Virus record (IMG/VR): IMGVR_UViG_3300025132_000126
Span: 1 to 36,069 of that record
Length of the DNA: 36,069 bases
Strand: one strand, 5' to 3'
Origin: a virus
Position 1 is the stretch's first letter. Each line of letters begins with the position of its first letter. The position numbers and the translations under genes are program-made. The notes beneath the pieces were generated by a model, which was not told the DNA's origin, made no database searches, and saw only the letters and a list, made by a program, of their open reading frames with translations. Below are positions 1,468 through 5,116 of this stretch, piece after piece.

Positions 1468-2184
1468 ATGCCGTTACCAACCATTACAACTCCTACGTAT
1501 GAGTTGAGTTTGCCATCGAACGACAAGAAAGTTAAATATCGTCCATTTCTAGTCAAGGAAGAGAAAATACTTATCCTTGCAATGGAATCTGAGGATACAA
1601 AACAAATTACAAATGCAATTACTGATGTTCTTAATTCATGTATCATTACCAGAGGTGTTAAGGTAGATAAATTACCTACCTTTGATATTGAGTATCTCTT
1701 CTTGAATGTTCGTGCTAAATCTATAGGTGAAGTTGTGGATTTAGTTGTAACCTGTTCTGATGACGGGGAAACAAAAGTAGATGTCGCAGTTAACCTCGAT
1801 GATATTAAAGTACAAAGAAAGGAAGAACATAAAACAGATATTAAATTGGATAAAAACCTCTCCTTAAGGTTAAAGTATCCATCAATGGAACAATTTATTA
1901 AAAGTAATTTTGATTTTGATGGTACTAATGTAGATGCATCATTTAAAATGATCGCTGGATGTATTGACCAGATTTATACTGATGAAGAATCGTGGCCAGG
2001 AACTGATTACACTGAAAAAGAAAGACTAGCATTTTTAGATCAACTAAACACTAAACAGTTCAAAGAAGTAGAGCAGTTTTTTGATACTATGCCTAAACTT
2101 TCACATAAGATGACAGTTAAGAATCCCAAAACTGGGGTTGATAATAATGTGGTGCTTGAGGGTTTGGCGTCTTTTTTCGTATAA
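1468..2184 (+). CDS. gp26: Baseplate hub assembly protein gp26
   Basis: This is a 238-residue acidic/basic soluble protein. The N-terminal KKVKYRPFLVKEEKILILA segment (about residues 19-37) and the following MESEDTKQITNAI are characteristic of the T4 gp26 baseplate-hub family as seen in cyanophages; T4 gp26 is 208 aa. In T4 it takes part in assembly of the central hub. The gene lies directly upstream of the gp51-like frame, the same order as T4 genes 26-51. The last codons before its TAA carry a six-T run that forms a slippery heptamer (see 2172-2178). Confidence 0.8.
   Translation: MPLPTITTPTYELSLPSNDKKVKYRPFLVKEEKILILAMESEDTKQITNAITDVLNSCIITRGVKVDKLPTFDIEYLFLNVRAKSIGEVVDLVVTCSDDGETKVDVAVNLDDIKVQRKEEHKTDIKLDKNLSLRLKYPSMEQFIKSNFDFDGTNVDASFKMIAGCIDQIYTDEESWPGTDYTEKERLAFLDQLNTKQFKEVEQFFDTMPKLSHKMTVKNPKTGVDNNVVLEGLASFFV
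2172..2178 (+). promoter_or_regulatory. Candidate -1 frameshift slippery heptamer T_TTT_TTC
   Basis: In the gp26 frame the codons read TCT TTT TTC GTA TAA. Re-pairing of the TTT and TTC codons one base back gives TTT TTT, and the -1 frame continues CGT ATA ATA ATG straight into the gp51-like frame with no stop. T TTT TTC fits the X_XXY_YYZ rule. The downstream ATG at 2187 has no visible Shine-Dalgarno sequence. I did not identify a convincing stimulatory structure. Confidence 0.5.
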
Positions 2185-2186
2185 TA

Positions 2187-2360
2187 ATGGCACAAGAGGA
2201 TCTTGTGTCATACTTTAAGTTAAATTTTGCCTTGATGCAGTACCATAAATACTCTTTGACAGAGCTTGAAAATATGATTCCTTGGGAAAGAGAAATTTAT
2301 GTTTCCCTTCTCCAACAACACATCGAAGAGGAAAATTTAAAAGCACAGCAAAATGGCTAG
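2187..2360 (+). CDS. gp51: gp51-like small baseplate hub assembly protein
   Basis: A 57-residue product starts two bases after the gp26 stop and ends 8 bp inside the next gene. The sequence MAQEDLVSYFKLNFALMQYH with the later ENMIPWEREIYVSLL motif matches what I know as the short cyanophage gp51 hub-assembly protein. T4 gp51 is much longer (249 aa), so assignment rests on position after gp26 and the motif. With no ribosome binding site, expression is probably by coupling to gp26 or by -1 frameshifting, which would give a fusion of about 297 residues. Confidence in coding is higher than in the name. Confidence 0.6.
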   Translation: MAQEDLVSYFKLNFALMQYHKYSLTELENMIPWEREIYVSLLQQHIEEENLKAQQNG

Positions 2361-3678
2361 TTCATTCCTACCAAAAAGACAAGAAAGTAAGGGCGGTGCT
2401 CTTGCTAGAACTATGATGGGAAGAAATAGTCAGACAAGTCAAGTTGGTGGAGTTACTCAACAAGTTGTTGTTGCTGGTTTTAATGATGAGGTTTTAGGAA
2501 GAATAGATCAGAATTTAAAATCAATACTTGAAGTATTGACAAAGGATTTAGAATTACAAGAAGATAGTTTAGACGATCAAAAGGACGCAGCAGTACAAGC
2601 AAAAAGTCAGTCTAGAAAAAATGCAGAAGAAAAATCATTTGCCAGTCCTATCATGGGAGGAATTAAGAAGATTGGTAATATTGCCAAGGAAGTAACTGGT
2701 GTAGGAAGTGTATTAGATAGATTGATACAAGGATTTGGTGCAATAATAGCAGGATGGGTTGCTGGTAAATTACCAGAAATAATAGAAACACTTAAAGCAA
2801 CATGGGACACAGTTTCAAAAGCTGTGATGAATGTTGTTAACAGCGTTATTGAAGGTATCAAGGGAGTATTTAATTTTATCAAAAATATAGTTACTGGTAT
2901 TATTGATTGGTTTAAAGGTGGTTTTGATTTTCTAGGAAAAGGAATAAAAGGATTCATAGACTTCATTATTGGAATTGGAGAAAAAATATTTGAAGGACTA
3001 AAGAAAGCATGGGATTTTGTAACTAATCTTCCTGGTGCGATTGGTGGTGTCTTCAAGAAAGGTTGGAATTGGATAACTGGTGGTGACAAAAATGGTGAGA
3101 TTAAGTCCGTAAACACAGGTAGGAAAGTAGAGAAATCTTTACCTAAAGGATATGCGGGACCTGGAGTTGGAGATGGTGGTGCGATTCAAAATTCAGAAAA
3201 AACTTATAATGAAAATTTTAGTGATAAAGTATTTGATAAGAAATCTGATGTAAATGTCAATGTAAATTCATCAAGTTCAGATACTGTTGGAGATATGAAA
3301 GGTCAGGGTAATAAAAAGAATCCTGTTATACAACCCAAGGTTTTAACTGGAAAGAGTTTTACACAAGGGCAAATGAATAATGCTGTTCCTAATGTCAGTC
3401 CTAAAGAATTTGATATACCATCATCAATTCAACCATCATTATCACAAGTAGAACCAGGTAAAGTAAAAGATAAAACAGTTGCTCAACAAAAACCAGAATC
3501 ATCACCACTTATTGTTCCTTTGGCACCAAATCCAGTGATGCCTACTACAAAATCTCAAACTAGTGTGGGTCGTCCAAGTGGCGGTGATAATGGTGCTAAG
3601 GCAATTCCATCTAAAAATCCTAAAAATTTCTATCCAATGTTTGCTGCAATTCAATATAATTGCATGGCAGACTTCTAA
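2353..3678 (+). CDS. Tape-measure-like tail/hub structural protein, paralogue 1
   Basis: This 441-residue protein has a helical, charged N-terminal part (residues ~45-100). A hydrophobic block follows at about 121-145 (LDRLIQGFGAIIAGWVAGK...PEIIE), then amphipathic Gly/Phe/Ile/Lys-rich repeats to ~245 (FNFIKNIVTGIIDWFKGG and similar), and a Ser/Pro/Asn-rich low-complexity C-terminus. Long hydrophobic helices of this kind are usual in tail tape-measure proteins, and the position between gp26/51 and gp27 fits a hub or tape-measure role such as T4 gp28/gp29. The hydrophobic block is shared with the next gene, so the two look like tandem paralogues. No exact T4 counterpart is claimed. Confidence 0.55.
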   Translation: MASSFLPKRQESKGGALARTMMGRNSQTSQVGGVTQQVVVAGFNDEVLGRIDQNLKSILEVLTKDLELQEDSLDDQKDAAVQAKSQSRKNAEEKSFASPIMGGIKKIGNIAKEVTGVGSVLDRLIQGFGAIIAGWVAGKLPEIIETLKATWDTVSKAVMNVVNSVIEGIKGVFNFIKNIVTGIIDWFKGGFDFLGKGIKGFIDFIIGIGEKIFEGLKKAWDFVTNLPGAIGGVFKKGWNWITGGDKNGEIKSVNTGRKVEKSLPKGYAGPGVGDGGAIQNSEKTYNENFSDKVFDKKSDVNVNVNSSSSDTVGDMKGQGNKKNPVIQPKVLTGKSFTQGQMNNAVPNVSPKEFDIPSSIQPSLSQVEPGKVKDKTVAQQKPESSPLIVPLAPNPVMPTTKSQTSVGRPSGGDNGAKAIPSKNPKNFYPMFAAIQYNCMADF

Positions 3679-3688
3679 GGTAAAGTAA

Positions 3689-5116
3689 ATGGCAAAAGTA
3701 GAATTACCAAAGGTTAACGAAGATACATTAAAGAGATCAACTCTTTCTATGAAGAGTATTGATACTACTGTTCTTTCTATAGCCAAATTTTTAGATAAAA
3801 AAGAATCTTTTACAGCAAAGAAACAAAAGTTTTTGAAAGATCAAAAAGCGATGATCAAAGGTCAGAAAAGAAAAGCAGATGAAGCTGACAGTCTAAAGGT
3901 AGAGAAAAAGAAAGAAACAAAAGAAAATAGGATTGTTACCGCTGCAAAGAAAAAGGGTGGTAGTATGTTAGATAGACTTATTTTGGGTGTTGGATCTATT
4001 TTTGCAGGATGGTTAGCAGGTAAAGTACCTGAAATCATAGAATTGATAAAGAACAGTATGCCAAGAGTTAAAGCAATTTTTGATGGAATAACAAAAACAG
4101 TTGGATTGATTTATGAATACTTCCAAAGTATGTTTGTAATTGTATATGAACTAGGCAAGTCTTTATTTACATTGACTCCTCCAGATGGTGAAAAAATTGC
4201 TTCTGAATTTAATGACATAAAAGGTGCATGGGATTCATACCTAAAAAGTGCCACTAATGGTTTTAAAGCAATAACAGGACAAGACTTTCAAGATCCAAAG
4301 GATTTAGAAAAAGTAGATAAAGAGATAAAAAGTAATAGTGTAGATGAATCTAAATTAAAAGAAGAAAACAAACCAAAAGTAGATAAAAAGATTAATAAGA
4401 AAGAAGTTAGCCAAGAAGAATTAGATGCAAAAATAAAAGACCCTAAAATTATTGAACTGTCTAATAAAATGGCAGGTGATGGTAAACCAAAAACTAAGGC
4501 AACTCAGGGTTATATGCAGGCAGTTTCAGTTGGTAAGATGCTCACTGATCAAGGTGTTGGTGTTTGGCAACATCCAGACTTCAATATAAAAAGTGGTTTC
4601 ACTGGTTCTGGTCTAGAGGGTATGATGAAAAGAGCTTCTAATTCTTTCCATAGTTCTGGTGAAGCACTTGATATTCCTATTGCAGGTCAAGGTGAAGAGA
4701 GATTAAATCAAATAGCTTCAATGCTTGGTGCTAATAAGAAAAAACTTGGCATCAATGAACTGAAGTGGAAAGATGATGCTGACCACATGGATCATATCCA
4801 CGTTTCTTTCAAAGGAGCAGTTAATGAATTAATGAAACCAGCAAGTGTTTCTGCAGCACCATCTTCTAAATCTACAACTATAGATAATATTAATGCTGCT
4901 AAAGATATTGATTCTCCAGATAGAGACATGCAAAAGAAAATTACTCAAGCAGTATTGTCTCAGCAAACACAAGTACCACCAATGTCTGTGCCTGAACCAC
5001 AAAGTAAAGCAATAGTTGTAGGTGGCGATGGTGGAGAACTTCCTACACCTGATATCGATACTCTGTTAAATACTATGCAGAGGACTAGAGTACTAACAGC
5101 ATTAGCATACCAATAA
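3689..5116 (+). CDS. Tape-measure-like protein with M15-type peptidase domain, paralogue 2
   Basis: In this 475-residue protein, residues 94-118 (LDRLILGVGSIFAGWLAGKV then PEIIE) repeat the hydrophobic block of the upstream gene. From about 265 to 380 there is a peptidase-like region: FHSSGEALDIPI with His321 and Asp328, then DHMDHIHVSF with His369/His371. The HxxGxAxD...HxH arrangement is the zinc site of M15/DD-peptidase-type enzymes that cleave peptidoglycan peptides. It could open the cell wall during infection, which matters because the gp5-like protein downstream shows no lysozyme domain. Lys-rich coiled sequence fills residues ~35-75 and ~205-250. Zinc binding and activity are inferred. 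Confidence 0.6.
   Translation: MAKVELPKVNEDTLKRSTLSMKSIDTTVLSIAKFLDKKESFTAKKQKFLKDQKAMIKGQKRKADEADSLKVEKKKETKENRIVTAAKKKGGSMLDRLILGVGSIFAGWLAGKVPEIIELIKNSMPRVKAIFDGITKTVGLIYEYFQSMFVIVYELGKSLFTLTPPDGEKIASEFNDIKGAWDSYLKSATNGFKAITGQDFQDPKDLEKVDKEIKSNSVDESKLKEENKPKVDKKINKKEVSQEELDAKIKDPKIIELSNKMAGDGKPKTKATQGYMQAVSVGKMLTDQGVGVWQHPDFNIKSGFTGSGLEGMMKRASNSFHSSGEALDIPIAGQGEERLNQIASMLGANKKKLGINELKWKDDADHMDHIHVSFKGAVNELMKPASVSAAPSSKSTTIDNINAAKDIDSPDRDMQKKITQAVLSQQTQVPPMSVPEPQSKAIVVGGDGGELPTPDIDTLLNTMQRTRVLTALAYQ

Follow-up and report, generated by a model that had tools for sequence, protein, structure and literature searches.

Among the closest described counterparts of the locus analysed here is the tail assembly chaperone gene of phage lambda, in which the slippery site is G_GGA_AAG. 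That one gene lies upstream of the tape measure gene and yields a short chaperone, gpG, and a -1-extended form, gpGT; both are described as binding the tape measure protein, gpGT also recruits the tube protein, and neither form is expected in the virion (PMC5009743). According to the same 2016 review, conservation of G-T frameshifting is wide 'except T4' (PMC5009743). The T4 genes 26 and 51 are separate and divergent, so no frameshift joins that pair. Vladimirov, Gautam and Davidson reportedly identified the tail assembly chaperones of T4-like phages in 2022, in a paper whose title stresses a mechanism other than frameshifting (PMID 34826709). Their work is cited, in the passages of PMC12846349 that concern these genes, on T4-like phages whose TAC-N genes carry poly-T signals for -1 frameshifting, and the core claim made below is therefore probably already in print; the hairpin, the Shine-Dalgarno-like bias, the case of Aeromonas phage Aeh1 and the breadth of the survey are our additions, with which the 2022 paper may overlap. 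The same passages propose a -1 frameshift at a conserved GTTTTT near the TAC-N end in Vandenendeviridae and Andersonviridae, the ORF that follows supplying the C-terminal domain, an arrangement like the present one but in different families, and they mention neither an RNA structure nor a Shine-Dalgarno element (PMC12846349). Our literature search on the gp26-gp51 junction in cyanophages returned no paper, the 2022 study lying outside its scope. For the frameshift signal of Escherichia coli dnaX, the relevant parts of two papers describe a Shine-Dalgarno requirement (PMC5600365) and a stem-loop (PMC7282821).

The window, that is, the whole stretch of viral DNA analysed here, comprises 36,069 nucleotides (IMG/VR record IMGVR_UViG_3300025132_000126), and all features given below lie on its + strand. 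The gp26 reading frame (1468..2184, 238 aa) matches PF12322 (E=1.2e-75) and positions 5-232 of the 282-position phrog_150 (E=1.4e-81), and is the putative short form of the chaperone, equivalent to TAC-N or gpG. The initial annotation had noted a slippery heptamer in gp26 phase ahead of the gp26 stop and a -1 frame leading directly into that of gp51, and the codon readout of the window agrees on both counts: T_TTT_TTC (TTTTTTC) occupies 2172..2178, one sense codon before the stop TAA (2182..2184), within the codons GAG GGT TTG GCG TCT TTT TTC GTA TAA. Frame 0 thus ends in ...SFFV, while after a -1 slip the codons CGT ATA ATA ATG GCA CAA would follow and the product would read ...LEGLASFF-RIIMAQEDL.... 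The final -1-frame TGA upstream of the heptamer (2157..2159) limits entry from that side, so the -1 frame can be entered only between 2160 and the gp26 stop. The -1 extension (2178..2360; RIIMAQEDL...QQNG, 60 codons and a stop) matches phrog_634 and positions 239-280 of phrog_150, and would be the T domain of a long product of 297 residues. Inside it lies the annotated-type gp51 (2187..2360, ATG at 2187), a 57-aa ORF that is in the -1 frame relative to gp26 and is not full length in its own frame. The predicted junction-bridging peptides of the long form are TGVDNNVVLEGLASFFR and IIMAQEDLVSYFK, the latter beginning upstream of the ATG at 2187. From the sequence comparisons presented below, we consider it highly probable that gp26 and 'gp51' belong to a single tail assembly chaperone gene whose expression involves -1 programmed ribosomal frameshifting.

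The gp26+gp51 pair is matched at the DNA level by 357 phage records, and the named phages nearest to the window, which derives from a marine T4-like cyanophage relative, are Prochlorococcus phages P-SSM2 and P-SSM5 (70.8% nucleotide identity over gp26-gp51). In a first scan, 80 out of 493 relatives were kept; all 80, like the window, contain TTT TTC with a preceding T, then one codon and then the gp26 stop, and 79 of them have gp51 in the -1 frame, the remaining one (L036) being cut off. Further scans and named phages gave 191 loci, which were reduced to 142 distinct 180-nt junctions, of which 141 were analysed; L180, whose gp26 ends mid-gene, and L187, truncated and without a full gp26 match, were left out. 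The conservation of heptamer and phase among relatives, which the initial annotation had proposed to check, was found in 136 of the 141 distinct junctions: T_TTT_TTC stands exactly one codon ahead of the stop in 126, and T_TTT_TTC, T_TTT_TTT or T_TTT_TTG stands 0-2 codons from it in the other ten. The canonical heptamer is absent from five junctions (L084, L086, L087, L088 and L090, four of them listed as Ackermannviridae), and their -1 frame is open nonetheless. At these five Ackermannviridae-type junctions, the non-canonical A CTT TTC, C CTT TTT, G ATT TTC and G GCT TTC were observed, with the -1 frame entering a gp51-like domain. After clustering at 85% nucleotide identity, 75 of 80 gp26 clusters have the heptamer at the junction position; elsewhere in gp26, in-frame canonical heptamers occupy 82 of 17,653 positions in these clusters, TTTTTTC occurring once. 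Probabilities calculated for third-base T and for TTT TTC were set aside as circular, because the 68 clusters used had been preselected for the heptamer. The -1 frame continues for 51-69 codons beyond the gp26 stop in 137 of the 141 junctions and reaches the contig end in the other four; it is open for at least 51 codons in 138/141, compared with 0/141 for the +1 frame (median 5 codons). The nearest upstream -1 stop lies 4-33 codons before the gp26 stop (68 clusters).

Candidate stimulators were found on both sides of the heptamer. On the one hand, the Shine-Dalgarno-like GAGGG (2158..2162) lies upstream with a 9-nt spacer. Of the 57 clusters that encode Glu-Gly at this position, 46 use codons forming GAGG or GGG, compared with 14 of the 42 Glu-Gly pairs located elsewhere (Fisher p=2.9e-6), and this bias is alike in clusters with (33/41) and without (13/16) a downstream start codon, indicating that the element is not a leader for gp51. 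On the other hand, a hairpin with an 11-bp stem and a 3-nt loop (2187..2211; -13.6 kcal/mol, z -4.39, none of 200 shuffles equally stable) begins 8 nt past the heptamer, and its 5' arm holds the annotated-type gp51 ATG. Across 79 clusters, a 60-nt fold from near the heptamer end has a mean z of about -2 against dinucleotide shuffles, whereas the same fold begun 20 nt later has a mean z of 0.08. When the first 14 -1-frame codons from the gp26 stop were compared with 100 synonymous versions, the mean z was -2.16 and 50 of 80 clusters fell in the lowest 5%; eight codons further on the signal was gone (4/80), which indicates that the hairpin is under selection beyond coding constraint. A second, weaker structure excess was seen at many loci under the same control at -1 codons 32-45 past the gp26 stop, where 23 of the 79 clusters ranked among the lowest 5%.

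The stem sequences vary between lineages. Four covariation groups (A1-A4), chosen by eye from single folds, took in 57 of 68 cluster sequences together with L004 and L007; A4 was aligned and left out of the pairing counts, and the other 11 clusters could be placed in none of the four. In the three groups counted, 84.4, 86.9 and 77.6% of cells preserve the intended pairing, compared with at most 45.2, 54.5 and 52.9% for a slid pairing, and double-sided changes are few (5, 3 and 6 cells in A1, A2 and A3). Because covariation within groups is this thin, the hairpin claim leans mainly on the synonymous-codon control. L147 and L160 share the 5' arm GCCCTC after the heptamer with L095, L119 and L125, but the distance to its partner GAGGG(C) differs, which suggests that hairpins have been rebuilt. 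In its upstream Shine-Dalgarno, slippery heptamer and downstream stem-loop the E. coli dnaX signal, as its layout is generally known, is like the present one, and its spacings between the three elements resemble those found here; the differences are the heptamer sequence, the location in a viral chaperone gene and a hairpin that varies between lineages.

Adjacent stop and start codons, and an ATG or TTG at the annotated gp51 start, which 33 of the 80 clusters have (ATG in 30) and the window among them, are what would be expected if gp51 were a short protein produced on its own, through re-initiation or translational coupling from the TAA at 2182-2184 to the ATG at 2187. However, 32 of the 80 clusters have no ATG, GTG or TTG among their first five -1 codons. 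A Shine-Dalgarno sequence ahead of the first possible gp51 start was found in two of the 80; the gp51 frame had been described at the outset as having no ribosome binding site, and none is indeed consistent across relatives. In the window, no Shine-Dalgarno was found at the usual place before the ATG at 2187, which is occupied by the slippery run. In the 68 clusters having T_TTT_TTC one codon ahead of the stop, the first -1 residues, which precede any start, show conservation (R in 62, I/V/L in 68, M/L in 67), and among the 25 of these without a start codon, R, A and L are still found in 20, 22 and 24. Since the residues are conserved even where a start is missing, the stretch is most simply translated by ribosomes arriving from gp26. 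In addition, the ATG of the window lies within the 11-bp hairpin, the heptamer is conserved even though re-initiation does not need it, and the T4 gp51 is full length. Re-initiation as the sole route to gp51 is thus very unlikely, and across the clusters the downstream frame appears not to be independently initiated, although re-initiation retains some likelihood in the 33 clusters with a start at the annotated place, among them the window with its ATG. There is somewhat more room, though still not much, for a combination in which some phages make the frameshift fusion and also a free T domain by re-initiation; the frequency of an ATG at the annotated place would fit this, while its absence in many relatives and its sequestration in the window hairpin do not.

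A homopolymer run is present at the junction, and RNA polymerase could slip on its six T residues to generate mixed mRNAs in which the frame is restored. Such slippage usually needs longer runs, whereas the present run is only six T, is terminated by C in most relatives and has not been lengthened; nor would polymerase slippage give any role to the selected hairpin or to a Shine-Dalgarno-like element at ribosomal spacing, and we hold it to be even less probable than re-initiation. A sequencing error or a decayed, broken gene was also considered, and gp26 of L180 does stop mid-gene as such errors do, but all 141 distinct junctions have an identical phase, as do named isolates, which makes this explanation negligible. 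Independent initiation, polymerase slippage and sequencing error were each rejected on the grounds given above, leaving -1 ribosomal frameshifting as the preferred reading.

Comparison with T4 supports a fusion of this kind. The alignment of T4 gp51 (249 aa) covers fusion residues 23-284 and crosses the junction, whereas that of T4 gp26 ends at the slippery-site position; a profile of 80 fusions matches T4 gp26 with an E-value of 1.7e-26 and T4 gp51 with 1.2e-14, all E-values here being those of a two-protein database. The C-terminal domain of this profile matches residues 208-246 of T4 gp51, T4 gp51 covers positions 13-280 of phrog_150, which independently links it to the gp26 and gp51 of the window, and a profile comparison between gp26 and T4-type gp51 gave a probability of 96.7. 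T4 gp51 is thus collinear with the fusion over its full extent, and T4 gp26 with the N-terminal portion, indicating that these hub assembly chaperones, which resemble the long and short forms, come in T4 from two divergent genes without a joining slippery site and would be made by frameshifting in most relatives. The frameshift layout was found in 15 of 16 named phages sampled, ten of them with the canonical heptamer, and the two-gene layout in IME13 and T4. An unrooted tree of 41 rows resolves three separate groups: the frameshift forms (support 93/89), T4-type gp26, and T4-type gp51. In a 2010 comparison, the cyanophage gp51 was reported to be about 20% as long as usual and to be without its first ~200 residues, and no gp51 was reported for Aeh1 (PMC3037559). 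Read in the -1 frame, an unannotated 166-nt gap after gp26 in Aeh1 (NC_005260 118835-119000; L204 2336-2501) encodes a complete T domain, and there is no start codon close to where that domain begins. Frameshifting would explain both the short cyanophage gp51 and its reported absence from Aeh1, and the annotation of gp26 and gp51 would be corrected in many marine T4-like genomes.

The AlphaFold (AF2) model of gp26 (pLDDT 85.1) has its best PDB matches in the HK97 tail assembly chaperone 2ob9 (Z 7.8), 3fgx (Z 7.8) and YqbN 3klu (Z 7.3), the last two of which we take to be chaperone-like proteins; all Z scores are below 8 and concern the N-terminal domain only, and the next PDB row is at 4.8, so that the top three stand clear of unrelated rows. 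A PDB sequence search with the gp26 profile gave chance matches only (best E 0.035), and a Foldseek search of the PDB with a T4 gp51-type model gave no match (best E 0.39). The fourth structural match to gp26 is PDB 5ir0, ORF19 of a Vibrio cholerae PICI-like element (Z 4.8), possibly a satellite-encoded protein with a tail-chaperone-like fold. The downstream gene (2353..3678), which shares its first 8 nt with the T-domain end, is weakly tape-measure-like (weak PHROG tape-measure matches, best E=1.3e-7), and a clearer match to a tape-measure PHROG (E=8.4e-12) is found in HTVC008M, one small gene further along. Tail-length data for tape-measure scaling were sought in PMC10665884, the consulted part of which contains no tape-measure passage. 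The fold of gp26, this weakly tape-measure-like neighbour and the full-length T4 gp51 support the parallel with G/GT that the initial annotation had drawn, and gp26/gp51 is very probably the equivalent of lambda G/GT; the lambda-like arrangement stands for the cyanophages and other relatives, while for T4 itself, with its divergent genes 26 and 51, it does not. The locus differs from lambda in belonging to a T4-superfamily myovirus, in its heptamer T_TTT_TTC, and in its hairpin and Shine-Dalgarno-like element.

The junctions display a conserved signal and phase, an open -1 frame, no conserved start, a hairpin under selection and homology of T4 gp51 to the fusion; the occurrence of shifting, its rate and the chaperone function are inferred. 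In the mechanism we propose, most ribosomes would stop at 2184 and release the short form (TAC-N, lambda gpG-like), whereas a minority, held by GAGGG behind them and the hairpin in front, would stall while TTT occupies the P site and TTC the A site, shift back by one base at T_TTT_TTC and continue to 2360, producing the 297-residue long form (TAC-NC, gpGT-like). By analogy with lambda, the short form would coat the tape measure protein and the long form would use its C-terminal domain to recruit the tail tube protein, while T4 would make both forms from separate genes, 26 for the short and 51 for the long. Taken together as a single reading, to which we give about an even chance, the T4-superfamily chaperone would carry a dnaX-like three-part cassette of Shine-Dalgarno-like element, T_TTT_TTC and hairpin, with unrelated hairpin stems substituted between lineages in a kept place, the T4 branch would have exchanged the frameshift for the paralogues 26 and 51, and the marine 'gp51', its start codon being hidden by the hairpin, would never be a separate protein. 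Frameshifting and duplication could then be two solutions to one protein ratio, which makes the ratio requirement testable.

The second gene past the T domain (3689-5116) adjoins the tape-measure-like gene and has weak endolysin-type PHROG matches over residues 299-379 (E 0.0049). It carries the motifs HSSGEALD and DHMDHIH, which presumably are metallopeptidase-like.
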